DNA from: Parietichytrium sp. I65-24A
Taxonomy: Eukaryota; Sar; Bigyra; Thraustochytrida; Thraustochytriidae
NCBI GenBank assembly: GCA_012862575.1
Contig: BLSF01000003.1
Location: 744,001 to 808,000, forward strand
Length of the DNA stretch: 64,000 bases
Direction of reading: 5' to 3'
Shown one piece after another: positions 28,314 to 50,048 of the stretch. Every line of letters begins with the position of its first letter. The first letter of the stretch is position 1. The position numbers and the translations under genes were made by a program. The notes beneath the pieces are model-generated. The model searched no databases. It saw only the letters and a list, made by a program, of their open reading frames with translations, and was not told the origin of the DNA.

Positions 28314-31300
28314 CTACCGCTTGATGGATTTGCTAACTGCAAGACCACGAAATCGATTCGCCCTTGGTACGGCGACAGGCATTTCAAATGCCTGACTTTT
28401 CCGAGTCTGCAGCTTCTTCTCCTGTCGCAACTTTGCTGCCTTCTGCGTGAATTTGTCGGACACCTTGGCAGTCGAGAGGTGCAAGCGGTTGCTCTTCTTT
28501 CGCGAGGAACCTGAACCACTGCTTCTGGTGCTGGACCCGGAAGAGAAGAGCTTGGAAGCCTTCCGGAGATACTTGGAGCCCCTGCCCTTTCGATCTGTTT
28601 GGGCTTTGGACTTGAGGGTCTTACCTTCCTGGCGAAGTTGGGGCGCTCGGGATGCTTTTCCGCGCCTTCCGCCATTGGATAATACGCGAGCCACCCTTTG
28701 GATTTGCGCTCCGAAAACCAGCCCAACGATGGCCAGGAAGCCGACGAAGGTAACCATCGGAAAGCTAGCCAAAAAGCTCAACACGAGCCGCATGATCGCA
28801 GGGCCAAAGTAAAACAGAAGCAGCGGGGAGGCCCACATGATGGCTTCCTTGTTTTGTGTGTACCACACCGGAGGGTGCCACCTTGCGCGCCGATTTCGCC
28901 TGGCCTTGCGCCTGCGCGCGCGCGATTTGCGCATTACATAGTCCAGCCATCTCTGAAAATGAGGATTGCGCTGGATAATCTCTGCAGCAATTGCCCGCTG
29001 CTCCAGATGGTCTTGGACCTCTTTGCGGACGAGCCATCCGCGTACGTTGCGTTGAATCACCAGCGCAGAGTAGTTGACCCTGAACTCATTTCGGTATTTG
29101 CGAAATGCACGTTGTATTTTCACCACACAGTCATAGGTCCTTTCCGCCTTTTTCATTTCCATGTAAGCCAACGTGGACTGGCGAAGAAAGACTTTGGTTT
29201 TTCCGATTTGATAATCCTGTCCAAATTCAAGTTTGGCGTTATCACAGATTTTTTGACACACCTTCACTTGGGCTTTCCTGTCCCCGCTCTTCGCAACTGC
29301 AGATGCCTTTCGAGCAGCGGAGCGAAGACCATAGCTGAGAACTGCAAACTGCTCGATGAAGATTGGCAGCGAAAACCTTGAAGGGTAGCCTGCTCGCGTG
29401 ACCTTGACTAGCTCGAGGACACCAGAATAGCGCAGTTGATTAACCATTCGGCTCCGATCAAATTTCTTCGGTCGGTTTTCGTCATTTGGCTTCAGGCACC
29501 GGATAAAGTGCGCGTCGCTTGCTCGAATCACGCTCATAGCATTTGCTAGCTGGGTCTTGAAATGTGCCCCGACGGTAGTTTTGAGCAGCTTTGTCCCGCC
29601 CGTATTCGTGGAGCTGAGGTTGGTGAATGATCCGGCGCGACCTCTTCCGCCAGCTCCATTGCCGCTAGACGTCGCCCCACGGCTCATCAGTCCATCAAAA
29701 TATGCCGCCATGTCTGCCCCGCCTGCCGCAGCAGCCGCACTCGCAGGAAACAAGCAGCTCACAAGTCTGTCCGAGGACGATCGGACGACATCAACGACCT
29801 GTTGGTGCAATTCATTGCGATTTTTTACACAAAACCCTTCGATCCGGTAGGACACGTTTCCGGCGAAATGCTTAACCGTAAAGGCCTGTTTGCTCTTGTC
29901 TGCCTGAGACACCAGGAAATGCTCCGGAAATCGTTTAGGAAGATTGGCATGAAGCTTTGCGATCAAAGTGCTGTCGGTGCCCCTCGGGAAGAGGCACTCC
30001 TCGTCGATGAGCGAGAGGAGTCCGACTGGCTTGGCCTCGATCATTTCAATGCACTTGCTATTGTCCGGAAACGTAACGTATTGCCAATTGATGGCCTCGC
30101 GCTCGTACTCTTCTTGCTCAAATCGGAACACAAATTCATTAAACTGTTGTTGCAACTGCTCGTTTGTGTAGTTGATGCAGAGTTGCTCAAACGAGTTGTT
30201 GTCGAAAACCTCGAACCCAAATATGTCAAGACAGCCGATAAGGGAATCGCATCTTTTCTCCACCTTTCCTTTCCCTTTAAGCAAGCCAGACACCTGGGCA
30301 AAAGCGCGGTTAAAGCTAAGGGTAACGTTTGATACCTCCGGAGCAGGGAGTGGGTCGTCGTGCGAACTTTCGTCGTCACTTTCTCCGCGTCTCCTTCGAC
30401 GCTCGGCATACTGCCTTTCTTGCTCTTGTCTACTCAGCAATGCCTCGTATTGCTTGTCATCCATTCCAATGCTGAGGTTGGTGCGCCACACAATCCAACC
30501 AAATAGCCGCTCGTAGAGATTCATGGCCAATGCATCGCGCGCATCGCTAGCCTCCTTTTTGTTCAGCGGTTTCACAACACTCTCGTTGCCAAAGCCGACC
30601 CGAATCTCGCGAGTCGTCAAAACGTTCTCTAGCTCGTCGGGATCCACCTCAAGGAGGGTTGCGGCGAGCAGCAAGGAGCTGTCCCGATTAGTAACTTTGG
30701 TCGCAGGTTCTCCAGCGGAGTTTGTGCGCTCCTTAAAGTCTGTGTTGCCCAGATGCAGAATTGCGACAATGCAGCGAAAAACGCGCTCAATGTCGCCCGG
30801 GTTAAAGTTGAGAACCTGCATGGCGCCTATGGTCGTTTGAAATTGCGCAAGGTCGTCGATGTCGCTTCGGCGCATGACGCCGGAAGCACCCGTGTATCGG
30901 GAGTTCCGAAGCGAAGGAAAATACCAGCGCTTCTTTTGCTCCGGGGTAGCCCCCGCATCCAGTTCATAGAATATATGGTAATTCCGCTCGCCGTCGCTCT
31001 GATGCACGACTCTCGCCTTTTCAAGCAGATACGAGTCGATGTAAGCGCCTTTCATCACAGCCTTATTGCGGTCAAACTGAACTTGAATCAGCTTTCCAAA
31101 TCGACTGGAGTTGTCGTTTCGAATGGTTTTGGCATTTCCAAACGCTTCGAGGACCGGGTTCGCTTGAAGGATGCGGTCAGCGACAAACGTTTTGCGTTTC
31201 TGCCCAACAGCGCTTACGTAGGAAAGGTAGTTGAGCACGATCTTGACGGTCTCTGTCTTACCCGCCCCTGACTCTCCGCTAACCAGAATGCTCTGGTTCG

Positions 31301-32444
31301 CGCCGCCATTATCTCGCATCGCTCGGAAAGCGTCATCAGCTAGCTTGTATGCATGCGGCTCAACGCTCACAGTTCGCAGGCCTTTTTTGCCGGCACTGTA
31401 CCCTTTCGAGGACTCCATGTACATCTTTGCAACTGCCGTCCCGTACATGTCGATTCGCTTGAAGGGGTTGACGGCCAGGAGAATGGGGCCAGTAAATGTG
31501 TAGATTTGATCATCAGCGAAGCGTTCGTCCAGCGCTTCCAGCAAAGCGGGCTCGTGAAGCGCAGGAAGTTTTGTGAGATCGCTTACCTTTTGCAGCTGCT
31601 TTTGGGTGCTCAGCACCGGTTCTACGTCTCTCAGGTCCACCTTCACAAGTCTACTTGCGCCTCGCGACCCGCTCAGCTTCACGGATACAAGGCCGCCTTT
31701 CTCGCTGGAGTCCACGGTTCCTTTCACCCACACTTCCTCCTCATCAGGGATCCACACCGGCGTGCCCGGCTTGCCGACAACGCTCTGCTTGTTGTGAACC
31801 GAATCGGGCATGGAGTCGTCTCTAAATTTATTGAGTCTATCTGGCAGAAAGCGGGTGAGGTCGAACTTGTCCCGAATGCTATTTCTTCTCACCTGCTGCG
31901 CCGGCTTGTCGGCCCCGTTTGCATTTTTCCTGGACCCCTTGCTTTTCTTGCTCTGCTTGGACCCTTTGCTCCTCTTGGAAGTCTTGCTGGACCGGCTCGG
32001 CGTCCTCTCCACCGGGGGCGGCCTAGACTTGATGATAGCAGCGGCCGCATGCGCGAACGCCGCTGCCTTCTCCTGCTGGCTCTTCATGGAAAATTCTAAC
32101 TCCTCCTTTGTGATCCCAAGCGCCGCCAGGTCCAGCTCGTCCTCTACCTCGGGCTCCGACTCGGAGTTTCCGCCGGACCAATCATCGTCTTCCGATACGT
32201 ACGATCCCGAGTCCGACTCTGACTCTGACTGCGATTCTGCGTCTTGCTCTTCGTCCTCGCTGTCCGACACGGAGTGGAAAGTGCCATCGCGGCGGAAGAC
32301 CACCTTGTACTTTTTCTCCAACGTGCTGATCAGCTGCTTCTCGCGACCGCGAAAGTGCTCCAACACCTTTGCCACGTCCTTCACCTTGTCCGGGGCGTGC
32401 ACACCGTAGAACTCCGTCACCACCTTCTTGTAGTCCAGACCCAT
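28314..32444 (-). CDS. Myosin heavy chain with two IQ motifs and C-terminal membrane segments
   Basis: The ATG at 32442-32444 gives 1376 residues. Residues 1-55 form a helical module (VKDVAKVLEHFRGREKQLI) seen in several protist proteins. Acidic and basic linkers follow, then an SH3-like part (VWIPDEEEVWVKGTV) and the motor with P-loop GESGAGKT near 389 and relay segment LDIFGFEVFDNNSFEQLC. Two IQ-like motifs (VVKIQRAFRKYR, ALVIQRNVRGWLVRK) bind light chains. After a very basic stretch, residues about 1204-1246 are strongly hydrophobic (SPLLLFYFGPAIM, then MVTFVGFLAIVGLVFGA), enough for two membrane spans. The last 130 residues are basic and Ser-rich. No coiled coil is visible, so it is probably a single-headed motor tied directly to a membrane. 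Confidence 0.93.
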   Translation of the reverse strand: MGLDYKKVVTEFYGVHAPDKVKDVAKVLEHFRGREKQLISTLEKKYKVVFRRDGTFHSVSDSEDEEQDAESQSESESDSGSYVSEDDDWSGGNSESEPEVEDELDLAALGITKEELEFSMKSQQEKAAAFAHAAAAIIKSRPPPVERTPSRSSKTSKRSKGSKQSKKSKGSRKNANGADKPAQQVRRNSIRDKFDLTRFLPDRLNKFRDDSMPDSVHNKQSVVGKPGTPVWIPDEEEVWVKGTVDSSEKGGLVSVKLSGSRGASRLVKVDLRDVEPVLSTQKQLQKVSDLTKLPALHEPALLEALDERFADDQIYTFTGPILLAVNPFKRIDMYGTAVAKMYMESSKGYSAGKKGLRTVSVEPHAYKLADDAFRAMRDNGGANQSILVSGESGAGKTETVKIVLNYLSYVSAVGQKRKTFVADRILQANPVLEAFGNAKTIRNDNSSRFGKLIQVQFDRNKAVMKGAYIDSYLLEKARVVHQSDGERNYHIFYELDAGATPEQKKRWYFPSLRNSRYTGASGVMRRSDIDDLAQFQTTIGAMQVLNFNPGDIERVFRCIVAILHLGNTDFKERTNSAGEPATKVTNRDSSLLLAATLLEVDPDELENVLTTREIRVGFGNESVVKPLNKKEASDARDALAMNLYERLFGWIVWRTNLSIGMDDKQYEALLSRQEQERQYAERRRRRGESDDESSHDDPLPAPEVSNVTLSFNRAFAQVSGLLKGKGKVEKRCDSLIGCLDIFGFEVFDNNSFEQLCINYTNEQLQQQFNEFVFRFEQEEYEREAINWQYVTFPDNSKCIEMIEAKPVGLLSLIDEECLFPRGTDSTLIAKLHANLPKRFPEHFLVSQADKSKQAFTVKHFAGNVSYRIEGFCVKNRNELHQQVVDVVRSSSDRLVSCLFPASAAAAAGGADMAAYFDGLMSRGATSSGNGAGGRGRAGSFTNLSSTNTGGTKLLKTTVGAHFKTQLANAMSVIRASDAHFIRCLKPNDENRPKKFDRSRMVNQLRYSGVLELVKVTRAGYPSRFSLPIFIEQFAVLSYGLRSAARKASAVAKSGDRKAQVKVCQKICDNAKLEFGQDYQIGKTKVFLRQSTLAYMEMKKAERTYDCVVKIQRAFRKYRNEFRVNYSALVIQRNVRGWLVRKEVQDHLEQRAIAAEIIQRNPHFQRWLDYVMRKSRARRRKARRNRRARWHPPVWYTQNKEAIMWASPLLLFYFGPAIMRLVLSFLASFPMVTFVGFLAIVGLVFGAQIQRVARVLSNGGRRGKASRAPQLRQEGKTLKSKAQTDRKGRGSKYLRKASKLFSSGSSTRSSGSGSSRKKSNRLHLSTAKVSDKFTQKAAKLRQEKKLQTRKSQAFEMPVAVPRANRFRGLAVSKSIKR

Positions 32445-32452
32445 CTCCGCGC

Positions 32453-32480
32453 TCACTCACTCACTCACTCACTCACTCAC
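32453..32480. repeat. (TCAC)n tandem repeat at myosin start
   Basis: About seven TCAC units directly before the myosin ATG on its coding strand (GTGA repeats). Confidence 0.9.
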
Positions 32481-35382: not shown

Positions 35383-38300
35383 ATGCGTGCGACAGCGGCG
35401 CTGGCGCTGGTGGCGCTTAGCGTGCAGGCAGTGGCGGGGTCGAAATGCTCTGCGAAAGACAAGCTGGAGCTTGTGGCGGTGAACAGGTCCTCGTTTGAAC
35501 ATCTGCTGGACCCGGCACAGCTGCCCGCCACTTGCGCGGATGGGTCGGAGGTGGCGTACTATGTGAGCAAGGACCCGTACGACGAGGACGAGATCAACAG
35601 GGACTTTGTCATCTGGCTGGGAGACTCGGATTTGTGCTCGGGAGAAGAGTGTGATGAGCTGTGCGATGGCACCACACGGAATGAAGCAACTGCAGAGGGC
35701 ATCTGTGGTGGCGTGTCGGAACAAATCACTTCGCTTGCTTCTCAATCCGATGATGACAGCGTGGCAAAGTGCCTCTACTCGCGCGCCACCTGCACTAGCA
35801 CGTGGTGGGACTCCATTAAAGAGATCACACCAGAGACTGTACTTTGCAATGACGACCCACTATTCGGTACCTTCAGGAGAGTTTTTTTGCCGGCGTGCAC
35901 ACTGGACTGGTGGTTGGGCAGAGGCAGCACCTCCAACTCTGGTAAGGAAGAGTTCCGTCATAGGGGAAATATTGCTCTGGAAGAAGTTATTTATGACTTG
36001 TCGATGAGATATAACTTGACCAATGCTACCAAGGTGGTACTCGGAGGCACGAGGGGAGGTGCCATCGGTGTCTTGAACAACTTTGAATTCATTCGCGACA
36101 CCATCGCAAAGGCCAAGGCAGACATAGGTCCTCCTGAAGAAATAGATCACGAGTACATGATGCTGATTGACTCAGCGTGGTTTATGAACGCCGAAAAGTT
36201 TGCTCCAGTGTTCAGCAATGGCACAAACGAGCTTGACGCGTTTCATACTTCCATAAAGAAGAAGACGTCCAGCTTCATCAGCAAGATTGCTTTGGATCCG
36301 GAGTGTCTGTCACGGTGGAACAAGGCTCCCGCGGGCAACGAGAACGACCTGCGTTATCGGTGCTTTATGGTCCCCGAGCTTCTTCAGTCCTTTCCTGATG
36401 AACGCGTTTTTATTACTCAATCGCTGTACGATATGGTGGAACTCGAGAGTTTGGGTCTCTTCGAGGAAGACGCCCCGGACCAGTTCGAAGACACCTCCGC
36501 TTACGTCTCCTCTGCCATCTCTTTTATCGAAACGTTCGGGGAGTCTACCCGAAAGAACATCGAAACAGTTGCGGCAATCCAGAACGCATCCAGTCAACAC
36601 TACATCTTCACCACCCCTTGCGCGCAGTACGGCTATCTTTTGCCAACCTCTCTGGTCTCCGTTGACACACGCGAAACAACGATCGGAACATTTGGATCCG
36701 TGACTTTCCAGCGCAATAACGAGGAGTGGGAGCAAAGCTTCCATGGGGCTACCATGAAAGACTCCATCAAGCGCTTCATTGTGAACGACGGGCAAAGCGT
36801 ATTTGACACCTCCGACGCAGGGCCTTCCGTGCAGTATGTCAACAACGCTCGATTCCTCACGTGTGGAAGCTTCCTTTGCGACTCGGGTTGCACAACCGAA
36901 ATCAATCCGTACGTCGTGCTCCCAAGCTTCTCGATGTGTATGCAATACATGGTTATCGCATACGGAGTGTCCGCGCTGGTTGTGTTCTACATTGCATTCT
37001 GCCTCGGCTGCCTCCAGGTGCGCAAATTTCGCTCAACGGTTGCTGTCTACTGGAAGCGCGTGAAACTCATTGAAGAGGCGACGACAAACAAGGACGCACA
37101 GCTCAAAGAAGTGCAACAGCAGCTTTTGAACGAGGCCTCTTCCGCAGAATATCGCCGCGTTCATCTCATGGTGCAAAATCTCTCCTATTGGGCACCTCCC
37201 AAGACGAGACGCGGGAAACCCTTCAAGATTCTAGACGAGGTGGACCTCACCTTTGCACCGGGCGAAGTACACGCCATCATGGGACCATCCGGTAGCGGGA
37301 AATCCACACTTCTCGACCTTCTCGCGCTCGCGCGTGACAACGGCAGTATATCTGGCGCGCACTACATTAACGGCGTGAGCTCGCATTCTCAGGAGTGCAA
37401 GTTTCTACGTGAATGGCTCAAGCACAACTCGAGCTACGTGCGCCAATCTGATGTCCTGTTCCCACGCTTGACAGTGCGCGAGCACCTTGTGCACGCGGCC
37501 TGGCTCATGCTCCCGCAGTACATGTCTGAAGAAGCTAAACTTCGCCGCGTGTGGCAGGTGTTGCGACTTTTGGAACTGGATTCCTGCGCAGACACCCAGT
37601 GCGGAGATGGTGGCGTCACTTTCGAGGGGGGTATCTCTGGAGGTCAGCGCCGTCGCGTGTCAGTGGCAACGCAGCTGCTAAAGATGCCGGCTGTGCTTCT
37701 TCTCGATGAGCCTACCTCTGGACTGGACTCCACGAACGCCCTCTTGCTCATCAAAGCCCTGCATACTTTTGCGCACGAGGCCGGGGTGAACGTTCTCATG
37801 ACTATCCACCAGCCTCGCAAAGAGATCTTCGAATACTTTGACAGTCTCAGCTTCTTAGTTTCCGGAAGAGTCATCTATAGCGGGCCTGCATCCAGTGCTG
37901 CGCTTCACTTCCGTCTCCCGCCCTCCACCAAAAACATCGCCAACGACATTCTTGACGTTCTCCAGAGCTGTGATGAGCAGACCGTCAGTGACTTTGAGGC
38001 CAACTACCACAAGGGGCCACTGGGTAAAGCCGTCGAGGAGAAAATGGAGGCCGAAATCACGGAAATTACCCCGACTCTCATTGCCAACCTCAAGGAAATT
38101 CTGATCGAGAACAGCCTTGCGGAAGGCCGCTGGTCTTGGTCCGAGTCCTCCTCCGCAGCTATGCTTTCATGGGTCCTCATGTCGCGCACGTTCAGACGAG
38201 GAGGGTTTGACATCAAGGTTACCACTGTACTAGCCGCCGTGGGCGGGGTTCTGGTTGGGGCACTGTTCGCCGGCAGCGACTCGTTTACTTCTCGTACTGC

Positions 38301-40224
38301 TCTTGCATACATGATGGTAGCCACAATGACCTTTCTCCAAGGCACATTTCTTGGGGACCGATACCTCGGCGAAAAGCACATGTACGATCATGAAACTGAC
38401 GCCGGAACCTTCAGAAGTTGGGCAGCCTTCCTTATCAGTCAATTTGTGCGAGACGCAGTGACCTCCTCCATTGAAGGAATCGCGTTCGCCGTTCCAGCAT
38501 TCTGGATTGGAGGAATGTCCAAACACCACGAAGAAATGGATGACCTCTTGGAGCGGTTCGGGCTTTACATGCTCTTGATGGTGCTCACCTCATTCGTGGT
38601 CATCTGTCAAAACGTATTTATTGAGGTCGACAGGAACGACTTGCGCATTGCATCTATGCTTCAGATTGCTCTCCTCGGTCTCGGTGCCCTGTTCAACGGT
38701 TTTATCGTCAAGCTTGATGATCTCCCCGAGTACCTCTCCTGGGTCCCATACATTATGGTAACCTACTGGTCATTTGCTGGAACTTTGATCAACGACTTCA
38801 GCGGTCTCTCTCTGGGCTGCGACCTGTCCATCCTCGAGTGCGCCGCAAGGACCGGAGACGTTGTGTTGCAGAGTCTCAGCTATGAGAACCGGGACGTCTT
38901 CATTTGCATCATTGTCCTTGTCGCGTTTGTAGCGTTCTTCAGGGTGTTCGCCGCTGTGGACTTTTACTTGCGCTATGTGAGGAACCGCGGGAGCACACTA
39001 AAGCGAATGTCTAACGAAGTCATGAGCAAGATTGGCAGAACGCCAAGGCTCGGCAAGTCCGGAAAGAACACAATGGACGCCATGCTCGAGGCGCAGACGC
39101 CAACAATGCGTAGGCAGGACTCGGGAGGTTCTATGGGTTCCGGATCTGCGACCCCAAAAGCGGTCCGCACGCCAAAGACACCAAATGTGAGCTCCTTCGA
39201 GCTTGGGACTCCGAATATGAACTCACAACCGGAAGACCGGGAGCTTGACTTTTATCAGGAGAGCGGCGACAAGAAACACAGTTTCACGCAGTCGGGCATC
39301 GTTTCGTTCCTGCTGGACCGAAATCTTTTCTTGCTATTCTTCTTTGTCGATTTCTATTCGAGTGTGTACACCTGCACTTTAGAAGACTACGAGGTGGTTT
39401 CGGGAAGTAGCACGACTATAGACGCTCCAATCACTATCATGCTAGGGTTCTTTGTGCTGTGCTTGTGCTACGTGTTCCACTTCTTTTTCCAGCTCTTCTT
39501 CCTCGTGCCAAGCACCATCGACGGAAAATTGGACTGTACTTGGGGAGGCACTTATGACGCACTGGGCCTGATCACACTAATTATAGATATTGCAATCGTT
39601 GCTCAGACGCCAAGCAGCTCGAACACGATGGCCGTCCATTTGTACCTCGCAGCCATCATCCGTGCCATGCGTATGATCCGCGTATACTTGTTTTGGCAAA
39701 AGGTCGACGCCTATCACTTTGTGCGAGCACGATCTTTCTTGGATTTGCGTGACGAGCTCATTGAGGAGCTGGCCGAGGCCAACAACAATCGCATCTCTGG
39801 CTTTGACTTGCCCCCATCAAGTGGAAGCACTATGCCAAGACCTGGCCAAGCTGGAACCCCAGACCGTCCACCTCCACCTTCAAGAAGGCCGCCTCGTCCT
39901 GTGGGCACCAGCTCCACCGCACAAATGCCATCCACATTCCGCATGGCGAACCGCATTTCGAACCGACTGTCGATCGGCCGCGAGCGCAATTATCCTGCGA
40001 ATACCGACTCAGGAGCTCCAGCTCGGCCAGCCCGACCAGCAAGGCCGACTAGGATTCCATCCGCCAGGTTCGGACGGGCCCAAGCACCAGCAGTGGACCC
40101 AAATGCTATGGGACCTCAGTGGCGCCCGCTTGGCAATGGCTTCATGTACAACCCTTACACTGGCCAGACCATAGCTGTGGCACAGGCTGCAAGGCGTGCT
40201 CCGCCACCTCCGCCAGGAAACTAG
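35383..40224 (+). CDS. Tripartite fusion: PAE/Notum-like ectodomain, ABCG half-transporter, voltage-sensor-like module
   Basis: The ATG at 35383 starts a clear signal peptide (RATAALALVALSVQAVAG); an open frame reaches further up but only adds a basic leader. The protein has 1613 residues. Residues 20-500 resemble pectin acetylesterase/Notum: FRRVFLPACTLDWW, RHRGNIALEEVIYDLS, VVLGGTRGGAIG, DSAWFM (D263) and FITQSLYDMVE (D350). The nucleophile Ser of GxSAGG is Thr (T223), and the usual His region reads CAQYG (413-417). A membrane span at about 523-545 leads to the ABC ATPase: Walker A from 634, signature ISGGQ at 751-755, Walker B ending D775-E776. ABCG-type membrane helices follow, then a disordered part. 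Four more helices (about 1301-1440) end in an S4-like helix with R1427, R1430 and R1433. The tail is Pro-rich. Substrate unknown. Confidence 0.85.
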   Translation: MRATAALALVALSVQAVAGSKCSAKDKLELVAVNRSSFEHLLDPAQLPATCADGSEVAYYVSKDPYDEDEINRDFVIWLGDSDLCSGEECDELCDGTTRNEATAEGICGGVSEQITSLASQSDDDSVAKCLYSRATCTSTWWDSIKEITPETVLCNDDPLFGTFRRVFLPACTLDWWLGRGSTSNSGKEEFRHRGNIALEEVIYDLSMRYNLTNATKVVLGGTRGGAIGVLNNFEFIRDTIAKAKADIGPPEEIDHEYMMLIDSAWFMNAEKFAPVFSNGTNELDAFHTSIKKKTSSFISKIALDPECLSRWNKAPAGNENDLRYRCFMVPELLQSFPDERVFITQSLYDMVELESLGLFEEDAPDQFEDTSAYVSSAISFIETFGESTRKNIETVAAIQNASSQHYIFTTPCAQYGYLLPTSLVSVDTRETTIGTFGSVTFQRNNEEWEQSFHGATMKDSIKRFIVNDGQSVFDTSDAGPSVQYVNNARFLTCGSFLCDSGCTTEINPYVVLPSFSMCMQYMVIAYGVSALVVFYIAFCLGCLQVRKFRSTVAVYWKRVKLIEEATTNKDAQLKEVQQQLLNEASSAEYRRVHLMVQNLSYWAPPKTRRGKPFKILDEVDLTFAPGEVHAIMGPSGSGKSTLLDLLALARDNGSISGAHYINGVSSHSQECKFLREWLKHNSSYVRQSDVLFPRLTVREHLVHAAWLMLPQYMSEEAKLRRVWQVLRLLELDSCADTQCGDGGVTFEGGISGGQRRRVSVATQLLKMPAVLLLDEPTSGLDSTNALLLIKALHTFAHEAGVNVLMTIHQPRKEIFEYFDSLSFLVSGRVIYSGPASSAALHFRLPPSTKNIANDILDVLQSCDEQTVSDFEANYHKGPLGKAVEEKMEAEITEITPTLIANLKEILIENSLAEGRWSWSESSSAAMLSWVLMSRTFRRGGFDIKVTTVLAAVGGVLVGALFAGSDSFTSRTALAYMMVATMTFLQGTFLGDRYLGEKHMYDHETDAGTFRSWAAFLISQFVRDAVTSSIEGIAFAVPAFWIGGMSKHHEEMDDLLERFGLYMLLMVLTSFVVICQNVFIEVDRNDLRIASMLQIALLGLGALFNGFIVKLDDLPEYLSWVPYIMVTYWSFAGTLINDFSGLSLGCDLSILECAARTGDVVLQSLSYENRDVFICIIVLVAFVAFFRVFAAVDFYLRYVRNRGSTLKRMSNEVMSKIGRTPRLGKSGKNTMDAMLEAQTPTMRRQDSGGSMGSGSATPKAVRTPKTPNVSSFELGTPNMNSQPEDRELDFYQESGDKKHSFTQSGIVSFLLDRNLFLLFFFVDFYSSVYTCTLEDYEVVSGSSTTIDAPITIMLGFFVLCLCYVFHFFFQLFFLVPSTIDGKLDCTWGGTYDALGLITLIIDIAIVAQTPSSSNTMAVHLYLAAIIRAMRMIRVYLFWQKVDAYHFVRARSFLDLRDELIEELAEANNNRISGFDLPPSSGSTMPRPGQAGTPDRPPPPSRRPPRPVGTSSTAQMPSTFRMANRISNRLSIGRERNYPANTDSGAPARPARPARPTRIPSARFGRAQAPAVDPNAMGPQWRPLGNGFMYNPYTGQTIAVAQAARRAPPPPPGN

Positions 40225-41151: not shown

Positions 41152-41925
41152 ATGGGCGATGACCAGCCTCTGGGCGGGAGGCGCAGGGAGCGGCCAGGGG
41201 CGTGCTGGGGCTGCTGGAGCGTGATTAATAACGAGAGGTTCTGGGTGCTGGTGATCTTCATTGCGATGTTTGCGCTGATCATCGCCGCAATGGTGCTCAT
41301 TGCACTGCGAGACCGCTTCGAGGTGGAGGTGGACGGGGTCACGTACTATATGGTGATCTTGGGGAATAAGTTTGATGGATACGTAGACACTTCCACCTGT
41401 GAAGCGACCGGCACTGTCTTCGACTTTGAAAGCGCCATGTCTACGACATATGCGTTTGGAGGAACGGCTATTGGCGTGCTTGTTCTTGGCACGCTCGCTC
41501 TTTTGGGGCTCATTACCCCCATCGCTTACGCCGTGACCGACCTTCAGGGGAAAATCACCTATTACAAGATGAGCCCGTATTACCGCACGGTACTGTGCAC
41601 ATATATGATATCTCTTCTGATGCTGCTGGTGATTACCACAACTGTCGTGACTTACGGGCTTGGCTTTTATACCGAACTTGCCGGGGAATGTTGGGAGCAG
41701 TTCATTGGGCTCGTCAACACCACCCTTCCAGAGTCTCAGGTGACCGGTCTGAGATCCAATTTGTCCACCGTCAACACTGCGGATGCTCTATTCGGAGTCG
41801 CTGGAATTCTGTGTGGAGTCAACATCCTCTTTTACGGGTCGCTTTTCTGTAAGCGGCGGACTTGGTATGACACTGACGGAATCAAGTACTCCGCTGCGAA
41901 GAGTATAGAGCTATTGGATAGCTGA
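41152..41925 (+). CDS. Four-transmembrane protein, claudin/tetraspan-like topology
   Basis: This 257-residue protein has four hydrophobic helices at about 30-52, 103-127, 147-169 and 210-232, with both ends predicted cytosolic. The first extracytosolic loop (53-102) holds one Cys (C83). The second (170-209) holds C180 and two N-glycosylation sequons, NTT at 189 and NLS at 203. A short Cys- and Trp-rich stretch (CWGCW at 18-22) precedes helix 1 and could be palmitoylated. The layout is like claudin, PMP22 or amastin families, but I see no diagnostic motif, so no family is named. The start is fixed by the purine tract ending at the ATG. Confidence 0.75.
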   Translation: MGDDQPLGGRRRERPGACWGCWSVINNERFWVLVIFIAMFALIIAAMVLIALRDRFEVEVDGVTYYMVILGNKFDGYVDTSTCEATGTVFDFESAMSTTYAFGGTAIGVLVLGTLALLGLITPIAYAVTDLQGKITYYKMSPYYRTVLCTYMISLLMLLVITTTVVTYGLGFYTELAGECWEQFIGLVNTTLPESQVTGLRSNLSTVNTADALFGVAGILCGVNILFYGSLFCKRRTWYDTDGIKYSAAKSIELLDS

Positions 41926-42253: not shown

Positions 42254-43873
42254 TCAGGTGACTTTCCTGGAGCAGCGAACCTCGACCGACTTGGTGGTGT
42301 GTAGGACCATAGCGGCGTGCGCGCTCTTTTCCACCTTTGGTTTCACACGTTTCACCATTTCCTGTTCAAACGCAAGAAGCGGGTCTTCCCCTTCCGGACT
42401 CGTGCACAAAAATCGCGCGAGCGACCAGGCATCAACGAGGGCCTGATTGGCTCCCTGCCCTTTAAATGGCGACATGGGATGCGCCGCGTCGCCGATCAGC
42501 ATGACGGTGTCGTGCGAGGCTGGATCGCCGCATTTGACCCTCCCTTCGCAGACGCCGCGCTCCTCCAGCTCGGGGGCGGGGCGGTCATACGCCGGGTAGC
42601 CTGTCACATCTTCCGACTTTGTGGAGCTGAGGATCTGTGGGATGGGTTCGTGCCAGTTCTCGCACCGTTTCATGCCTTCTTCCAATAATGCAGCGGGCCC
42701 CGCGGCGCTGAGAGCCTGGGCGAGGTCAAGGCGCATCGGGAAGCTTAGTTGCCACATGGTGACACCTTCCTCAAACGGCATGCAATACATCCGCGTCGAC
42801 CCGCCGAGCGTCTGAAACACCTTGTTGTCTGCCAGCGGGTGCTTGCACGGCGCTCTGCCGAGAATTACAATGATGCCCAGATATCTCGGCGGTGTGGCAA
42901 TTGGGCCCATCTTCTGCGCCCGAACCTTGGACCAGATTCCGTCAGCCCCGATCAGCAGGTCGGAGTCCACGAACCGCGCCACGTCGCCATTCTCCCCTCT
43001 CTCCTTGAAGAACGTCCTGAGCGACTTGCCGTCTTCCGAGACGCGGTAGTGATCGAACGCGCAGCCCCAGCGCACCGTGCCTTCAGGCAGCGCGTCGCAC
43101 AGCAGCCTGCGCAACTCCTGTCTCGGCAGCTGGATGTTGAACCTCTGCTCGTCGCCCTTGCCGTTGCCGCGCGAAGCCCGCGTCGTGGAGTGCACACAGC
43201 GCCCGTATTCGTTCAGTAGCGTCCCGTCGGGCAGCAGCGACGCATGCGCCTCCGACGCGATGCCAAGCTCCTTCAGGCTGGCGAAACCCAGCTTGCGCAG
43301 CGTCGTCGCCGCCTGCTGCATCGTCAGGCCGTACCCCTGCGCCCGTTCCGCGAACGTCGCGTCCTTCTCCAGTACCACGCACCGGACGTTGCGCTGCGCC
43401 AGCGCCAGCGCCAACGCGCACCCGCCGATGCCGCCGCCCACGATCGCCACTCGCGGACTTCTGCGCGGACTGAAGCCGCCTTCAGTCGTGTCCTCGACGG
43501 GGACACTTTGCCCCGCGGGGACGACGCCCAGCCCGCCGCACGCCTTGCACGGCGCCACGCTCGTCTTGCGCCGCTTGCTCGCGCGCACCCCTCCCGAAGC
43601 GCAGTGTCGGCACCCTGTCCACGCTGCGTCGCCACCTTCTGGCCACGCTGCCTCGCTCGCGTATGCGAAAGTGTCCGCGCACGTCTCCGCGTGCGGCGCG
43701 AGGACGCCAGCCGACCCCTCGCGGGACATGGCTTTGGCCGCGGGAGAGAGGCTCTGCTGCAGCCGAGTCGCCACGTACCGACGTAGATGAGATGGCACGC
43801 GAGGAGGACACTCTTTCTCTTCTTCCTCCTCCTGCTGCTCCTGCGCCGCGGACAGGGAACGTTTCGCGGGCAT
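42254..43873 (-). CDS. FAD-dependent monooxygenase with N-terminal CxxC extension
   Basis: The first ATG in frame is 43871-43873 (539 residues); upstream the frame opens only at GTG. The group A flavin monooxygenase pattern is complete. It has RVAIVGGGIGGCALALALAQ (GxGxxG at 146-151), an Asp-Gly motif in LLIGADGIWSKVR, and VMLIGDAAHPMSPFKGQGAN (GD motif binding the FAD ribityl). Such enzymes hydroxylate aromatic or related substrates with NAD(P)H; the substrate cannot be read from sequence. Unusual is a 145-residue leader with an acidic run (EQQEEEEEKE) and paired CRHC (88-91) and CKAC-GG (109-114) motifs that could bind zinc. The third base composition is very GC-rich through the leader. Confidence 0.85.
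   Translation of the reverse strand: MPAKRSLSAAQEQQEEEEEKECPPRVPSHLRRYVATRLQQSLSPAAKAMSREGSAGVLAPHAETCADTFAYASEAAWPEGGDAAWTGCRHCASGGVRASKRRKTSVAPCKACGGLGVVPAGQSVPVEDTTEGGFSPRRSPRVAIVGGGIGGCALALALAQRNVRCVVLEKDATFAERAQGYGLTMQQAATTLRKLGFASLKELGIASEAHASLLPDGTLLNEYGRCVHSTTRASRGNGKGDEQRFNIQLPRQELRRLLCDALPEGTVRWGCAFDHYRVSEDGKSLRTFFKERGENGDVARFVDSDLLIGADGIWSKVRAQKMGPIATPPRYLGIIVILGRAPCKHPLADNKVFQTLGGSTRMYCMPFEEGVTMWQLSFPMRLDLAQALSAAGPAALLEEGMKRCENWHEPIPQILSSTKSEDVTGYPAYDRPAPELEERGVCEGRVKCGDPASHDTVMLIGDAAHPMSPFKGQGANQALVDAWSLARFLCTSPEGEDPLLAFEQEMVKRVKPKVEKSAHAAMVLHTTKSVEVRCSRKVT
43488..43506. other. GTGTCC/GGACAC inverted motif inside CDS
   Basis: GTGTCC-7-GGACAC with the same 19-bp layout as the copy before the VSR gene, but within the FAD monooxygenase leader. 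It may be chance or an internal promoter. Confidence 0.4.
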
Positions 43874-44285
43874 GCGCGCCCAGTCCGCGCACCTACGCAG
43901 TGCAGGGAAGTGAGACTGATGGAGAGAGTGTAAGAGAGAGAGGTAGGTGTTTGCGAGAGCCAATGCCTTCGATTGCGCCGTTTCGAGTTGCCCTTTCCTC
44001 GCACTTTGTCGCACTTTGTCGCGCTTTTCCGGTCAGATCCGCGTTCGCGCAACCGTCCGCGTTGAGGGAGTCCGAAAGTCCAAAAGGCCAAAAGGCTGGC
44101 TTTGGAAGAAGATTGGAATGCAAGTATTGGAAGTATTGGAAGTATTGGAAGAGGTGGAGGAAAGAAAAGTATGTTCCGCAAAGTGTTCCGCAACCCGTGG
44201 CCAGGTGGTGTGTGCCGTGGCTATAGAGAATACTGCAAGTGGGAATAGAAGATACCATCAGAATCAGGAATCAGAAAAGGTTTCA
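43874..44285. other. Short intergenic region with 9-bp repeat
   Basis: It holds GAGAGAG and GCACTTTGTC x2 stretches and the AAGTATTGG array; no gene. Confidence 0.65.
44122..44148. repeat. AAGTATTGG x3 tandem repeat
   Basis: Three perfect 9-bp units followed by a partial one (AAG). Confidence 0.95.
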
Positions 44286-47200
44286 TTAAATAGCGGTGGT
44301 GTTTAGGGATTGGGGAAGAGTTTGGAACTCGTGAAACGGATGTGATTGACTCACTGTGAGATGGAGGTCTTTGCGATACTGGCACCTAGGCCCTTGCTCT
44401 GCTGCGGGTGGGCCGGGAACGTAAGTCTCGCCACCATCGCTGTCCTCCATGGCGTAAGCATTCTCCTCGTCTTCAGAATCTTGGTACTTGACGCGCTTAG
44501 TAGAGCGAGCCGACTGACGCGCTTTGGGTTTGGCCTTGGATTTGGAGCGGGATCTTGGAGCCTCCTCCTCCTCTTCTTCTTCTTCTTCTTCCTCATCATC
44601 TTCATCTTCGTCGTCGTCTTCCTCCATCTTCTTGGCTTGCCTTCGACGTTTTCCATTTGCCGAAGCAGCAGCGCTCGGTGCAGCGCCTCTTGACGAGTTG
44701 GATGAGCGGCGATTCGGTTGGGGTTGCTGCGCAGTACGCACTGCGCGGCCAGATCGCGAGGGGCGAATTGGCTCGGGGTCGTCAAAGACACCAGCCTCTG
44801 CGTAATTCACCGCAGCACGGTTGCGCTGTGGCCGTGACGAACTTGTTTTGGACGGTGTTGGTCTTCCTCTGGAGCGCACCTGGTGCACAGGCTCGCTGCT
44901 CGACTCTTCGCTGTCGTCCTCCTCCTCTGTGCCAATCTCATCCAGCGGCGGCACCTTCCACTCGTTGAGGCCGATAACCTCTTGTGCGACTTTCACTAGC
45001 TGTTTATCTGCCACCCTTTTTATGTCAAGTGCGGATTTGTATGGTTGGCTGTGTTCCTGGTTGAATTTGACCGCGTTGTTCGGGATGAGGAGCAGGTCGT
45101 TTTGGAAAGATTGCAAGATGTGGATTGCTGTGTCCCTCGATACGTTAGACTCTCGATCCCGCAAGCCATATTCTGCGTTCCCCAATTTGGTTCGCATGGT
45201 TCCCAAATCCATAGGGTGCTCGATATAGTCTCGGTAGAAAGGTACTTGCTCTTCGTCCACTGGCTGGTCAAAAAGGTTGAATCTGTCCACCTTGAACATA
45301 GCCTTGAGAGTATCCTCCAGGCCGCGAACTAAATCGTCAAGGTTGACTTTGCGCGGAGTTCGAGACTGCCGGGTGGAGAGCAGACCCAACGACTCCTGTG
45401 TCTCTCGAGATCCGCGGCGTCTACGCTCAAGCGCAAACTCATCGTCATCCTCGCTTGCTTGCTCGGGTTGATCATCGCTCTCATCGTCATAGCCATGAGC
45501 AGTAGATTTGGCCCTCGCTTTGCCTTTCCCGGACGAAGCCCGCTTCGGGGTCGCATCAGAGGTCGCCGACAACTGCTCCGCGAGTTGGTCGATGCATGAT
45601 GTCAACTGTTTATTAATCACCTTGGAGTCCTTGGATATTGGCGCAGAAGCCTCATTGAAGAGTACGCAATTTGAATGAATGAGATCGACATCGGCCCGAA
45701 GGGCTTGAATGTGTCTGTAGTACCCTTGCTCCAAACGCTCAAGGATGAGGTCGAGCTCCATTGGAAGGGGCACCACCTGAGCGTATAAGGGCACCAAGTC
45801 TATGCGCACGGGCTCAATGAAATGAACTGCACGGTCTCTGTACTCCTCAATCACAGCGCGGATTGCGTGGGCCAGCTCATCACAAGCACTGGGTGAAAGC
45901 TCGGCGTTAACGGTGAACAGCTTTGGATTGTCCTTACTTGTAGACTTGCGGACCTCCCAAGGGCTGACCTGTCCATCCTCGCCAGTCTCGAAGGAAACCT
46001 GCAGGCACTCCCACGGGGAGCCTTCCCACTCTCCAGAACCCTCCGTTTCGTACACAGAAGAAATTTTCGCCGGATAGTACTCTGGCGCTTTTCGTAGCGC
46101 ATCCCAATAAACGACTCGAATCTGATTACCGGGAGCAAACTTTTGCATCATGCCGTCCTCGAAGCGTTCTTCCAATATCAGAAACTCTGAGCCATTGTGC
46201 GGCCTGTACGTCACCTTGAATGAGGTGATTGCTCGCCTCGCCTCTTCCAATGGAGACTCCCACATCTCGCTCGGTGAGCTCACTGGCACTGGAAGACTGC
46301 TACAAAGCAGTGCGTCAGTCGGGACCCCAATGATGGCCAGCTCGCACTCCGCATCAACGAGGTCTTCGTGTACGGTGGAGGCTCGTTTCCCAGAAGTTGT
46401 TGGAAACTTGTAATTGACCTTTTTCACCTCGCAAAGGACAGCACACCACTTTCGCTGCCACCCGCGGATCTGCCAAGGGGAACTTATATTAGTCGGGTGT
46501 TCCATCAGATAAAGGCGGTGGCCTTGAGGAAAGTATACAATACGATCCCCTTGCTGTGGAATGTAAGGGGCTCCATCAGAGGTTGCCCTTTTGGTTTCGC
46601 GAAGCCAGGCATAATCAGCTTTGAATACAACGGCCTCCTCGGCAGCGGCTCGGGCTGCTTGGCGAGATGCTCGAGGGCGACTTGAGCTTGATGCTGCTCT
46701 TCCAGTGTTGCTTCTTGCTGGCCGGCGCGAAGCAGCTCGCCGCTGCTGGTCTCGCTTAGCTCGACCTTTGCCGTTTCGCTTTCCGCTCACAGCAAGGTCT
46801 CCAGAATCAAGGGACATGTCATCATCATCTTCTTCTTCTTCTTCTTCGTCCTCTTCGCCATCGTCGTCAGTGTACACATATGTCGACGAGCGATTCGTTC
46901 GCTGGCTCGCTCGCCTACTGCTGGTCCGCGTCGCAACAGGCTGTTGTGCCTGAGTAGGAGCTGCAGCCTGATTAGAGCTTCTGCCCCGGCGACGAGCGTC
47001 CCCGCCCCAAACCTCGCCTTCATCATCGTGCAGCACACCTTGCCATTCGTCGTCCTCTTCTTCTTCTGAGCTGCTCAAAGCAGGGAGGTGACTGATCGCG
47101 CCCCCACTCTCCTCAAATTCCTGAAAACGTCGAATATGTCGCTGTGCTCGCCGAGCGGCTTGTCGTCTGCTCTGGCCTTGGGGGCCTGCTCGGGAGGATC

Positions 47201-50048
47201 TGTTCCGCAGCTGGCGCGAGTTTGCGGGTGAAGCTGGATTTCCATTGTCCGAGTTTTCTCCGGAGGAAGATAGATCATTAGCAGAATCGACGTTGATCGT
47301 AGCACGCTCGCAAGCCAATAAAGGGGTCGGGCCACCTCGCTGCGTTGGCGCGGCCGCTCGATTGGAGGATTGCGTCGTCCTGATAGCCTTGCGCGGATTT
47401 ATTCTTGCGATTGCTTCGTGCTCGTGGACCTGTGCTTGCTGCTCCGCCTGGAGTTGCCTCTCTGCTTCGTTGGCTTGGTCAATCATGGCATCAATTTCCT
47501 GAAACCTCGCCCTGAGACTTTGCATTGCTGCGGTTTCGTTGCGCCCAAGAACATCCTCAACCTGTCGGACCAGCTCCTTGCGAGCTTCCAAGTTCTTTTC
47601 CTGCTCGGCAATTGTGAGATTCTTGTGCTGTAGCGCTGGAGGTTGTGGCGAGTACTCGGCACCTTGAGAATCCACCAGCGTGCGGGCCACAAGGTGAGGT
47701 GCAAGCTGCGTTCTTCCATCCAAAACATTACCATGTTGATCTCGAAGAAGTTCGCCGTAGTCTGTGGAGAAAAACTGTTCTGGAAACGACCCGCTGTAGA
47801 CAGTGCCATCCTCTGTCCCAATAAGAATGAGCCGGCCGCCGGCATCTGTCGCGACAATAGACGAAGAGCTCCCAGAAGGTGTAAACATTCCATCCAGGAT
47901 CGTAAGCGGGCCATACTGCGAAGGTACAAGGATTTTCTTCAGCAACTTGCCCGAGTATACGTCCCACACGCATATTTGGCCGTCGTGCCCGCCACTCAGG
48001 AAAAGGTTGTTGTCTGTTGGGTGCGCACGCAGCACGAAAGCTGGCTTTCGGTGAGCGCAAATGTTATGTAAAAGATGCCCTGTGAAGGAATTGAAGATCT
48101 TGATGCGCTGGTCAAAAAACTCAACCAGATCCTCGTACTCGGTCCTATCCCAGTGCTGTCGCCGCTTGACCGATTGCATCGTGATGACAAAGCTGTCGTC
48201 GCGGCTCCAACAACAATTATCGAGAGAAGGAAGCTTTAGCTTGTTCGCGCTTGCTCGGCGAGCAGCAGCCGCTCCGGCAGGTCCACCTGCAAATCCTGTT
48301 GTGGCGTTGTCTTGCTCATTTGCGATAGACAGCACCCGATGATGGGTCTGGGTGAAAAAGTCTGGCTCTGCCTCATCGTCCTGATCCCTGTACAGCCATC
48401 GCCATATACGAACCGTTCCATCTTTCGTAGATCCTGTCAGTAAACGGTCGCCTTTGTGGGACCAAAACAAGAGTGCGACAGAATCCAAGTGCCCTGAAAG
48501 AGTACACACAAGGCGAGCGGCGCCGTCGACGTATTCGCCGTTCACAAGGTCCGGCATCGTTGGAGCCTTCTTTGCGCCATCGCGAATCTTAAATTTTCTG
48601 GAGACTGCCCACACGCGGATGAGTCCATCGTCGCCAGCAGTTGCAATCATGCCGCCTTGGGGCCGAACAGACACGAAATTGATCTCCACAGAGCGGTCTC
48701 CAAAATTGCTAAGATGCGGGAGAACGATGGGAACCCGCGGGTTCAGAAATGCACTAGTAATGCCTGCTTCGGCAACCGCGTGTGCACTGACAACCACGTT
48801 TTCATCCCTCGGAACAGAGGTAGCACCTGGCTCCACCTCACGAACAGAAGAAGACGACGAGGAGGACGGCAGTGAGGTGGAGCTGCTACTCGCATGCTGC
48901 GACGCCGAGTTCGAATTGCGCGGACCCGTTCTGGAGCTTGATCCCATTAGCTCGTTAATTCGCTCTTCGTCCTCTTTGATGATCCTTTCCGAATCCCAGA
49001 TGCAGCACATTCCATCATCCCCAGCAGTAATAATCAGGTTTTCAGCGGGGTCAAATTCCACAATATTGACATTCTTGCGATGGGATCTTAAGACTGCGAT
49101 ATGGCGACCTGTCTTCATCTCCCAAAGGCGAACGGTCTCGTCCACCGAGCAAGAGACCATATACCGGCTTGTGCGGTCAATAGCCAGATCACAAATCATT
49201 TTTTCGTGTGCGCGATAAGTCATGCATAGCTCCCCTGTCCTCGCGTTCCATAGTTTGAGCAGGGCATCGTCTGACCCAGTGACAATCCATCTGCCTGTCC
49301 TGTCCACATTTACACAATACACAAAGGCTTTATGGCCATAGATCTTTTTCATCACCCGCAATCTCGCCGAAGCTAGCTCCCTCGTTGGACCTGCAAGCTT
49401 TTGCTCGATCCGCCGCCCCAGTTGCGAGCTACCGAGAAGGTCCAGCACGCTTGTGGAACGCCGTCTTCTCTCCACCAGAGCATCCCGAAGGAGTGTCTGC
49501 AGATCTTTAATCTCAGTTTCCATTTGCACGAGTCTCCGCCTGACTTCGGCTTTACGTCTTTCTACCATGGAGTTCCCCCCAGCATTCAGAGGAGAAGAGC
49601 TGTCCGCCGTCTTCTCCTCCACGTTCACAAAATTGGCAGCATTCAGCTTGCCCTGCTCCAGTCTCGCAAGTTCCTTTTTAAAAGCCCGTCTCTGGTCGAG
49701 CAAGGATATCAGCTGAAGCGCCAGGCTCCGATCTTGATCGCGGTCTCGCGGTTGTCTACGAAGCAAGCTGCCCTCTGTCCTACGATCGAGCTGTCTCTGA
49801 CTGCGGTTCGTCAGTAGCATGCGCTTAAGATGGTCCGGGGCAACCTCAGCAAACCTGCCCCTCATGTCCTGCACATCCGACTGCCGCACGCTGCCATCCC
49901 ACCTCGTCACGCGCCCTAGTATCCCGCCATTCTTGAGCTCCTCCTTCAGCACCGCGGCCGCCTTCACGCACGCCGACGACCGCTCCAAAAAGTCTGCGAT
50001 CAAAAAGTACAGCTCGCGCTCTCGCACACTTTCCTCGCCCCTGTCCAT
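44286..50048 (-). CDS. BRWD/PHIP-like WD40 and double-bromodomain protein
   Basis: The ATG at 50046-50048 gives 1920 residues. The N-terminus (LYFLIADFLERSSACVKAA) matches the helical start of BRWD/PHIP. A basic and coiled part follows, then WD40 repeats from about 235 to 790 (YGHKAFVYCVNVDRTGRW, SDDALLKLWNARTG). Acidic and basic linkers lead to a region with CUL4/BRWD-like beta segments, then two bromodomains at about 1390-1500 and 1575-1690. Each keeps the acetyl-lysine-binding Asn (VLFNEAS, VKFNQEHS). The tail has a Glu run near 1803-1825. Animal relatives bind methylated/acetylated chromatin and act as CUL4-DDB1 substrate receptors; the same role is inferred. It is the largest gene here and uninterrupted. 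Confidence 0.94.
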   Translation of the reverse strand: MDRGEESVRERELYFLIADFLERSSACVKAAAVLKEELKNGGILGRVTRWDGSVRQSDVQDMRGRFAEVAPDHLKRMLLTNRSQRQLDRRTEGSLLRRQPRDRDQDRSLALQLISLLDQRRAFKKELARLEQGKLNAANFVNVEEKTADSSSPLNAGGNSMVERRKAEVRRRLVQMETEIKDLQTLLRDALVERRRRSTSVLDLLGSSQLGRRIEQKLAGPTRELASARLRVMKKIYGHKAFVYCVNVDRTGRWIVTGSDDALLKLWNARTGELCMTYRAHEKMICDLAIDRTSRYMVSCSVDETVRLWEMKTGRHIAVLRSHRKNVNIVEFDPAENLIITAGDDGMCCIWDSERIIKEDEERINELMGSSSRTGPRNSNSASQHASSSSTSLPSSSSSSSVREVEPGATSVPRDENVVVSAHAVAEAGITSAFLNPRVPIVLPHLSNFGDRSVEINFVSVRPQGGMIATAGDDGLIRVWAVSRKFKIRDGAKKAPTMPDLVNGEYVDGAARLVCTLSGHLDSVALLFWSHKGDRLLTGSTKDGTVRIWRWLYRDQDDEAEPDFFTQTHHRVLSIANEQDNATTGFAGGPAGAAAARRASANKLKLPSLDNCCWSRDDSFVITMQSVKRRQHWDRTEYEDLVEFFDQRIKIFNSFTGHLLHNICAHRKPAFVLRAHPTDNNLFLSGGHDGQICVWDVYSGKLLKKILVPSQYGPLTILDGMFTPSGSSSSIVATDAGGRLILIGTEDGTVYSGSFPEQFFSTDYGELLRDQHGNVLDGRTQLAPHLVARTLVDSQGAEYSPQPPALQHKNLTIAEQEKNLEARKELVRQVEDVLGRNETAAMQSLRARFQEIDAMIDQANEAERQLQAEQQAQVHEHEAIARINPRKAIRTTQSSNRAAAPTQRGGPTPLLACERATINVDSANDLSSSGENSDNGNPASPANSRQLRNRSSRAGPQGQSRRQAARRAQRHIRRFQEFEESGGAISHLPALSSSEEEEDDEWQGVLHDDEGEVWGGDARRRGRSSNQAAAPTQAQQPVATRTSSRRASQRTNRSSTYVYTDDDGEEDEEEEEEDDDDMSLDSGDLAVSGKRNGKGRAKRDQQRRAASRRPARSNTGRAASSSSRPRASRQAARAAAEEAVVFKADYAWLRETKRATSDGAPYIPQQGDRIVYFPQGHRLYLMEHPTNISSPWQIRGWQRKWCAVLCEVKKVNYKFPTTSGKRASTVHEDLVDAECELAIIGVPTDALLCSSLPVPVSSPSEMWESPLEEARRAITSFKVTYRPHNGSEFLILEERFEDGMMQKFAPGNQIRVVYWDALRKAPEYYPAKISSVYETEGSGEWEGSPWECLQVSFETGEDGQVSPWEVRKSTSKDNPKLFTVNAELSPSACDELAHAIRAVIEEYRDRAVHFIEPVRIDLVPLYAQVVPLPMELDLILERLEQGYYRHIQALRADVDLIHSNCVLFNEASAPISKDSKVINKQLTSCIDQLAEQLSATSDATPKRASSGKGKARAKSTAHGYDDESDDQPEQASEDDDEFALERRRRGSRETQESLGLLSTRQSRTPRKVNLDDLVRGLEDTLKAMFKVDRFNLFDQPVDEEQVPFYRDYIEHPMDLGTMRTKLGNAEYGLRDRESNVSRDTAIHILQSFQNDLLLIPNNAVKFNQEHSQPYKSALDIKRVADKQLVKVAQEVIGLNEWKVPPLDEIGTEEEDDSEESSSEPVHQVRSRGRPTPSKTSSSRPQRNRAAVNYAEAGVFDDPEPIRPSRSGRAVRTAQQPQPNRRSSNSSRGAAPSAAASANGKRRRQAKKMEEDDDEDEDDEEEEEEEEEEEAPRSRSKSKAKPKARQSARSTKRVKYQDSEDEENAYAMEDSDGGETYVPGPPAAEQGPRCQYRKDLHLTVSQSHPFHEFQTLPQSLNTTAI

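Follow-up and report, generated by a model that had tools for sequence, protein, structure and literature searches.

A Notum-fold ectodomain and a voltage-sensor-like module joined to an ABCG half-transporter of the thraustochytrid Parietichytrium

A gene in a 64,000-nucleotide stretch of the Parietichytrium sp. I65-24A genome (contig BLSF01000003.1, positions 744,001 to 808,000; hereafter the window) encodes an ABCG half-transporter that carries two additional parts of regulatory look; its host is a protist of thraustochytrid type. Ahead of the transporter stands an ectodomain with the fold of Notum and the pectin acetylesterases (PAE), and behind it a module of four transmembrane helices (4TM) that resembles a voltage sensor. 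We propose tentatively, giving the idea somewhat less than an even chance, that this is an ABCG exporter in which a module derived from a voltage sensor would let the membrane potential bias transport and a non-catalytic ectodomain would bind a ligand. The fuller form of the proposal, a voltage-gated ABC exporter whose rate would be set through an S1–S4 sensor and an extracellular pseudo-esterase receptor, we regard as doubtful.

The frame runs from 35383 to 40224 on the forward strand and encodes 1613 residues without a stop; upstream it stays open to 35269. Three Pfam families score above cut-off in the product: PAE (residues 126–401, E 8.3e-14), ABC_tran (617–779, E 4.7e-27) and ABC2_membrane (938–1137, E 1.3e-14). 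The order of the parts can be read off the sequence: a presumed signal peptide, the PAE/Notum-fold ectodomain, a transmembrane span (TM0), the ABCG half-transporter, the voltage-sensor-like 4TM module and a proline-rich tail. An earlier note on this DNA had described the uninterrupted frame, a pectin acetylesterase/Notum-like domain, a membrane span between it and the ABCG unit, and a full half-transporter. Each is borne out, respectively by the translation, the Pfam PAE match, a hydropathy span at residues 523–541, and ABC_tran followed by ABC2_membrane with every ATPase motif intact. As for the signal peptide that it also named, the hydrophobic N-terminus is present (residues 1–19), and the signal peptide itself is presumed from hydropathy. 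We infer that the ectodomain lies outside the cell, and the nucleotide-binding domain (NBD), linker and tail in the cytosol. The parts outside the ectodomain and the 4TM module are as follows.

35383..40224, forward strand: single uninterrupted frame, 1613 residues (translation, Pfam, and the order common to paralogue L002 and database relatives).
35383..35439, forward strand: presumed signal peptide, residues 1–19 (hydropathy, sequence).
36949..37005, forward strand: TM0, residues 523–541, with basic residues next to it (hydropathy).
37231..37719, forward strand: NBD, PF00005 (Pfam, alignment).
38155..38982, forward strand: ABCG transmembrane domain (TMD), residues about 925–1200, with PF01061 at 938–1137 (Pfam, PDB, NCBIfam).
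38992..39288, forward strand: linker, residues 1204–1302, charged, of low complexity and presumed cytosolic (alignment of relatives).
39766..40221, forward strand: tail, residues 1462–1613, proline-rich and presumed cytosolic (sequence, alignment).

An NBD (PF00005) that precedes ABC2_membrane (PF01061) in one chain is the ABCG half-transporter order, and the ATPase motifs are visibly intact (Walker A at 634, signature at 751, Walker B at 772, H-loop at 807). The best PDB matches are ABCG1 (E 2.3e-52), ABCG2 and further ABCG and CDR/PDR transporters; the top NCBIfam models among the best 25 of 182, pigment precursor permease TIGR00955 and the PDR family, are both under their cut-offs. The White/pigment permeases and the ABCG1 and ABCG2 half-transporters share with the window protein the NBD before the TMD, the intact motifs and ABC2_membrane; we know of none among them with a Notum-fold ectodomain or a 4TM module. 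Another ABCG gene of the genome (L003) encodes, by inspection, an N-terminus that is small, secreted and rich in Cys, with a TM0 ahead of the NBD, and an ectodomain ahead of an ABCG unit is therefore not odd in itself in this genome. Yeast Adp1 and plant ABCG24/28 likewise have a secreted N-terminal ectodomain, TM0 and then NBD–TMD, as the window protein does; to our knowledge none of these proteins has a Notum-like ectodomain or an S1–S4 module.

On the evidence of alignment the fusion is not a chance one, because a paralogue and at least 21 database relatives align with the same build. The paralogue, L002 (contig C82, 1475 residues), found in the genome of 42.5 Mb and 172 contigs, has the same domain order and is 42% identical over residues 49–1204. 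The only two PAE domains found by a search of this genome lie inside these two fusions. A protein search gave 2930 matches above threshold, and the family comprises the first 21 of the best 120 (P0002–P0022); the closest relative among the matches listed is a protein of Hondaea fermentalgiana, also a thraustochytrid (52% identity over 98%). The PAE domain is present in 19 of the 21 relatives, P0016 and P0022 beginning inside or after it. When the window protein, L002 and P0002–P0022 are aligned as 23 rows, 20 carry the 4TM module; P0020 and P0021 end ahead of the TMD, and P0018, a PAE–ABCG relative on a long branch at the base of group IV, extends past the TMD without the module. In a second search, with an alignment as query, the 120 entries listed of 244 comprised four of the known relatives and, for the rest, ordinary ABC transporters, and a protein search with the module region gave two known relatives among 565 candidates. 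Names given to family members in the database include 'ABC transporter G family member 22'.

A tree built from the ABCG portion of 21 rows, without P0020 and P0021, has four groups, with the window gene in I and the paralogue in IV, besides II and III. Hondaea (P0002, P0019) and the window genome each have one group I and one group IV protein, so the duplication that gave rise to these groups is probably older than the split between the two. The database assigns P0009 and P0012 to the fungus Batrachochytrium salamandrivorans (BASA81); the tree places both with other members of the PAE–ABCG family, and they are likely contaminants. Hondaea thus gives the relatives their one credible organism name. 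The tail ends in W-x-x-x-G-x-G-x-x-Y-N-x-x-T-G-Q, kept in the six group I rows and without a Pfam match, which we take to recall half of a WW domain.

The case for a voltage sensor begins with the build of the 4TM module.

39295..39402, forward strand: S1-like region, residues 1305–1340, modelled as a broken helix, with invariant R1313, D1323 and C1331 (AlphaFold2, alignment).
39430..39501, forward strand: S2-like helix, residues 1350–1373, with Y1363 and H1366 (AlphaFold2, alignment, Kv1.2 alignment).
39547..39606, forward strand: S3-like helix, residues 1389–1408, with invariant D1392 and D1402 (AlphaFold2, alignment, Kv1.2 alignment).
39628..39765, forward strand: S4-like helix, residues 1416–1461, with R1427/R1430/R1433, then K1440 and H1445 (AlphaFold2, alignment, Kv1.2 alignment).

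Hydropathy after residue 1300 gives three stretches, the fourth, Arg-bearing helix staying under threshold. An AlphaFold2 model of the module has all four (pLDDT 86.7, pTM 0.81), the first broken and the fourth spanning residues 1416–1461; this last helix continues for about 20 residues past K1440, presumably into the cytosol. Four further helices were what the earlier note had claimed, and the arginines at every third position of the last of them, R1427, R1430 and R1433, are as it stated.

Conservation of charge within the membrane is plain in the alignment. Nine columns are invariant in the 20 module rows (R1313, D1323, C1331, P1376, D1392, D1402, R1430, K1440 and H1445), and seven of the nine are charged or His, compared with 28 of the 163 module residues (p 6e-5, positions taken as independent). 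Arginine stands at S4 position 1427 in 18 of the 20 rows, at 1430 in all and at 1433 in 15; the S2 position 1363 is aromatic in 18 and the S3 aspartate D1392 is present in every row. Lys and Arg number 1.9 per 100 residues in loop 1–2, 11.4 in loop 2–3 and 16.5 after S4, and Asp and Glu 13.6 and 6.9 in the two loops; these charges fit a module with both termini inside and loop 1–2 outside. Glycosylation sequons occur in loop 1–2 in 7 of the 20 rows and after S4 in none. The invariant charges and the loop charges are what a voltage sensor should show, though they fall short of proof.

At the level of sequence, part of the family is statistically similar to S2–S4 of Kv channels. A profile of 19 modules (P0009, a near copy of P0008, was left out of alignment A3), run against the PDB sequences, gave four matches at E <= 10, three Kv3.1 entries and 3wkv (E 0.5–1.4). 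A profile of seven modules drawn from groups I and III gave 15 matches at that threshold, and all 15 are Kv1.2, Kv1.3 or chimeras; the best (E 0.0051) covers profile positions 35–148, through S2–S4. The same two profiles reversed gave no matches at all. The alignment with Kv1.2 pairs Y1363 with the S2 Phe, H1366 with the S2 Glu, D1392 with the S3 Asp, and R1427, R1430 and R1433 with three successive S4 arginines. Moreover, when hhalign compares the module with voltage sensors encoded in this genome, the scores are 27.2, 28.9 and 31.7 over 92–93 S2–S4 columns, whereas none of 16 control profiles (8 other membrane domains and their 8 reversals) exceeds 14.9, as compared with 38 to 81 among voltage sensors themselves; the amino-acid transporter control set holds 17 of the 18 loci tried. 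When 164 sequences are ranked by a voltage-sensor hidden Markov model, the first 8 are all modules, and P0012 aligns through S2–S4.

Voltage sensing nevertheless has a serious competitor. The module could descend from or resemble a voltage-sensor domain and serve a structural, dimerisation, lipid-contact or trafficking role, its arginines held in static salt bridges; the sensor-like domains of TRP channels are an example of voltage-sensor-like modules that do not sense voltage. We consider this a substantial possibility, short of evens, and a series of results speaks for it or against the voltage-sensor reading. The S2 acid is lost in 19 of the 20 rows (position 1366 is acidic in one), the third S4 arginine is lost in 5, and P0018 does without the module. 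A profile of nine modules of subfamilies II and IV found no voltage sensor in the PDB; the seven modules that did find one were picked after scores had been seen and for their kept S4 charges, so their E-values are favoured (P0003, P0004 and P0005 are in neither profile). S1–S3 taken without S4 gave no separate voltage-sensor signal: the likeness needs S4. Foldseek with the module returned nothing significant, and a VIA fold comparison placed other four-helix bundles above voltage sensors. The window module does not reach the Pfam Ion_trans cut-off, even when scanned as a piece, and is not among the genome's 98 Ion_trans matches; the 19 modules have one such match (E 0.38), and neither Pfam nor NCBIfam (best 25 of 182) assigns a voltage-sensor family to the module or the whole protein. 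Negative whole-protein scans are weak evidence, because such a scan also missed the voltage sensor of L027, another protein of this genome, that a piece scan shows. The proposed topology has its own difficulty, a sequon in the long linker, taken as cytosolic, in 11 of the 20 rows.

Set against a non-sensing module are the seven invariant charged or His positions, kept across rows of which some are only 21% identical to the window module; they suggest a working charge network. Also against it, the S4 trio is basic throughout the window subfamily (the first is Lys in P0006) and the S3 aspartate pair is kept, and the PDB matches of the seven modules are Kv channels only. The earlier reading of the module as a voltage sensor thus survives in part: the Kv-only matches, the S4 arginines and the S3 aspartates speak for it, the S2 site and Ion_trans do not. 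The acidic counter-charges are there in S3 (D1392 and D1402, invariant) and missing in S2, and Pfam, with PAE in the ectodomain, finds nothing past residue 1300. Taken as a whole, the earlier interpretation stands for the fusion, needs correcting for the ectodomain, which looks catalytically dead, and has real but incomplete support for the voltage sensor.

It is very unlikely that the module forms an Hv1-like proton pathway on the exporter, one that would leak protons under voltage control or sense pH instead of gating transport. The selectivity aspartate of Hv1 lies in the first helix, where the module has its invariant D1323, a likeness drawn without alignment. In addition, one of the four PDB matches of the 19-module profile, 3wkv, is identified as Hv1 in PMC6392501, and the window genome has three Hv1-like genes. 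Yet a profile of those three proteins matches the module weakly (21.2 over 39 columns), and the best PDB matches are Kv channels.

The second addition, the ectodomain, looks catalytically dead.

35440..36942, forward strand: ectodomain, residues 20–520, Notum/pectin acetylesterase fold, with five N-glycosylation sequons.
36052..36054, forward strand: R224, which stands where the catalytic nucleophile Ser would be (Notum GSSAGG, here GTRGGA; Notum alignment, column counts).
36430..36432, forward strand: D350, the catalytic Asp position, kept in 22 of 22 rows (alignment, column counts).
36628..36630, forward strand: Y416, the inferred catalytic His position (column counts, HCQ motif spacing).

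The window ectodomain scores 54.9 bits with PF03283 (cut-off 26.6), all 11 ectodomains scanned match that family at E <= 0.001, and the predicted fold agrees with Notum; the ectodomain alignment uses 11 of the 16 ectodomain pieces. The GxSxG nucleophile serine is absent from the window protein, which reads G-T-R-G-G, and its loss is evident across the column (21 rows: R 15, G 3, N 1, L 1, S 1). We assume that the Cys+3 spacing places the catalytic histidine column at Y416. That column lies outside the Notum alignment and was set by motif spacing; it holds His in 13 of 22 rows and Tyr in the window. The HCQ motif for the catalytic histidine is described in PMC5465549. With the nucleophile replaced by Arg and the inferred His by Tyr, and only the Asp kept, a binding or sensing role appears more likely than catalysis. 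The fold and the catalytic Asp are shared with Notum and the plant pectin acetylesterases (PF03283), which differ in having the Ser that is lost here, as well as the His that is lost at its inferred position, and no attached ABC transporter. Were the ectodomain an active carboxylesterase, one that released the transported substrate or altered it, this would account for the kept fold and invariant Asp, and for the histidine of those 13 rows, but we think it most improbable: the nucleophile is replaced in 20 of 21 rows, in 15 of them by Arg, and in the window protein Tyr also takes the inferred His site.

Every part of the chain has been kept as protein, for identity to the Hondaea protein P0002 extends over all of it (ectodomain 40%, NBD 78%, TMD 72%, linker 47%, 4TM module 48%, tail 41%). 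One relative, the group IV Hondaea protein P0019 (2181 residues), begins with additional EF-hand and GTP cyclohydrolase II domains and is possibly an over-joined gene model. That the window frame itself arises spuriously, by the joining of two or three distinct genes or transcripts, is hardly credible: P0019 indicates that over-joined models may occur in the family, but the same order recurs in the paralogue and in relatives of several sources, no stop breaks the frame, and conservation runs through the linkers.

The nearest precedent is SLC9C1 (sNHE), in which a voltage sensor follows a transporter domain. PMC10620092 describes an S1–S4 module with an S2 tyrosine, six S4 charges, an S2 Glu and a very long S4, and an exchanger controlled from the cytosolic side. 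SLC9C1 is a secondary Na+/H+ exchanger, whereas the window protein is an ABC ATPase with three S4 arginines and no S2 acid; in place of a cyclic-nucleotide domain it has a proline-rich tail and an ectodomain, and Pfam finds neither Na+/H+ exchanger nor cyclic-nucleotide-binding domains in it. With the voltage-sensor domains of Kv, Hv1, Ci-VSP and TMEM266 the module shares four helices, S4 RxxRxxR, the S3 Asp and the S2 aromatic; it differs in lacking the S2 acid and an Ion_trans match. Pfam finds no pore or phosphatase domain in the window protein. The voltage-sensor proteins named in a review (PMC10651576) are channels, sNHE, a channel-cyclase, VSP and Hv1. None of the papers listed by our literature searches, PMC12223298 among them, appeared to join an ABC transporter with a pectin acetylesterase or a voltage sensor.

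We suggest the following mechanism for a voltage-biased exporter. The Notum/PAE-fold domain, lacking its catalytic Ser, would bind a ligand with a lipid, acyl or sugar group and would not cut it. In the four-helix module after the exporter, derived from a voltage sensor, the S4-like helix would move with voltage, its three arginines facing acidic residues of S1 and S3, and would influence the exporter by way of its long extension in the cytosol, as in SLC9C1; the membrane potential would thereby bias export. Voltage sensing by the window protein, and its coupling to transport, are possible on this basis. The gating charge is expected to be small, because S4 has three arginines rather than six and the S2 site is uncharged. 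The working form would be a homodimer, or a heterodimer with the paralogue L002; dimerisation and ligand binding are both inferred. The outside ligand domain and the membrane sensor would then provide two inputs to one exporter.

Other genes of the genome combine or resemble these parts. L027:69-2183 (G000 C108:15600-18600) encodes a 704-residue sodium/calcium-exchanger-like protein with PF01699 in two stretches (E 3.7e-56) and an S1–S4 module between them (Ion_trans 1–117, E 1e-16 as a piece); with this exchanger carrying an inserted voltage sensor, it may be that sensors and transporters were joined on more than one occasion in this lineage. L028:169-957, L029:317-1267 and L030:388-1089 (minus strand) encode three voltage-sensor-only proteins of Hv1-like size with an S1 Asp, S4 RxxRxxR and Ion_trans matches, that of L029 just under cut-off. 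The genome gives a third, weak hit to the 4TM module (C7, E 0.012), apparently an unrelated frame with multiple spans. In the window, a 257-residue frame lies just downstream on the same strand (41152-41925, forward); it has several hydrophobic stretches and the look of a membrane protein, and no Pfam match at E <= 0.001. Further frames lie at 14808-16487 (forward), 28314-32456 (reverse), 42254-44014 (reverse), 44286-50048 (reverse) and 58533-63071 (forward), and their products include two myosin heads, which are among the genes that show the genome to be eukaryotic, besides an ABC_tran protein, an FAD-binding protein and a BRWD1-like protein with WD40 and bromodomain parts.

A conserved ABCG family with an S1–S4-like module raises the question of whether ATP-driven export can be gated by the membrane potential. 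If so, voltage-sensor control, known from channels, a phosphatase and one secondary exchanger, would extend to primary active transport, and the voltage-gated ABC family would include two proteins of the window genome and, among those known, two of Hondaea. The charge set is compact and open to testing: D1323, D1392, D1402, R1427, R1430 and R1433. The second surprise is a Notum-fold pseudoenzyme on an ABCG pump, most likely a receptor. A pump responsive to the electrical state of the cell would, if the proposal is true, be unusual for its kind.
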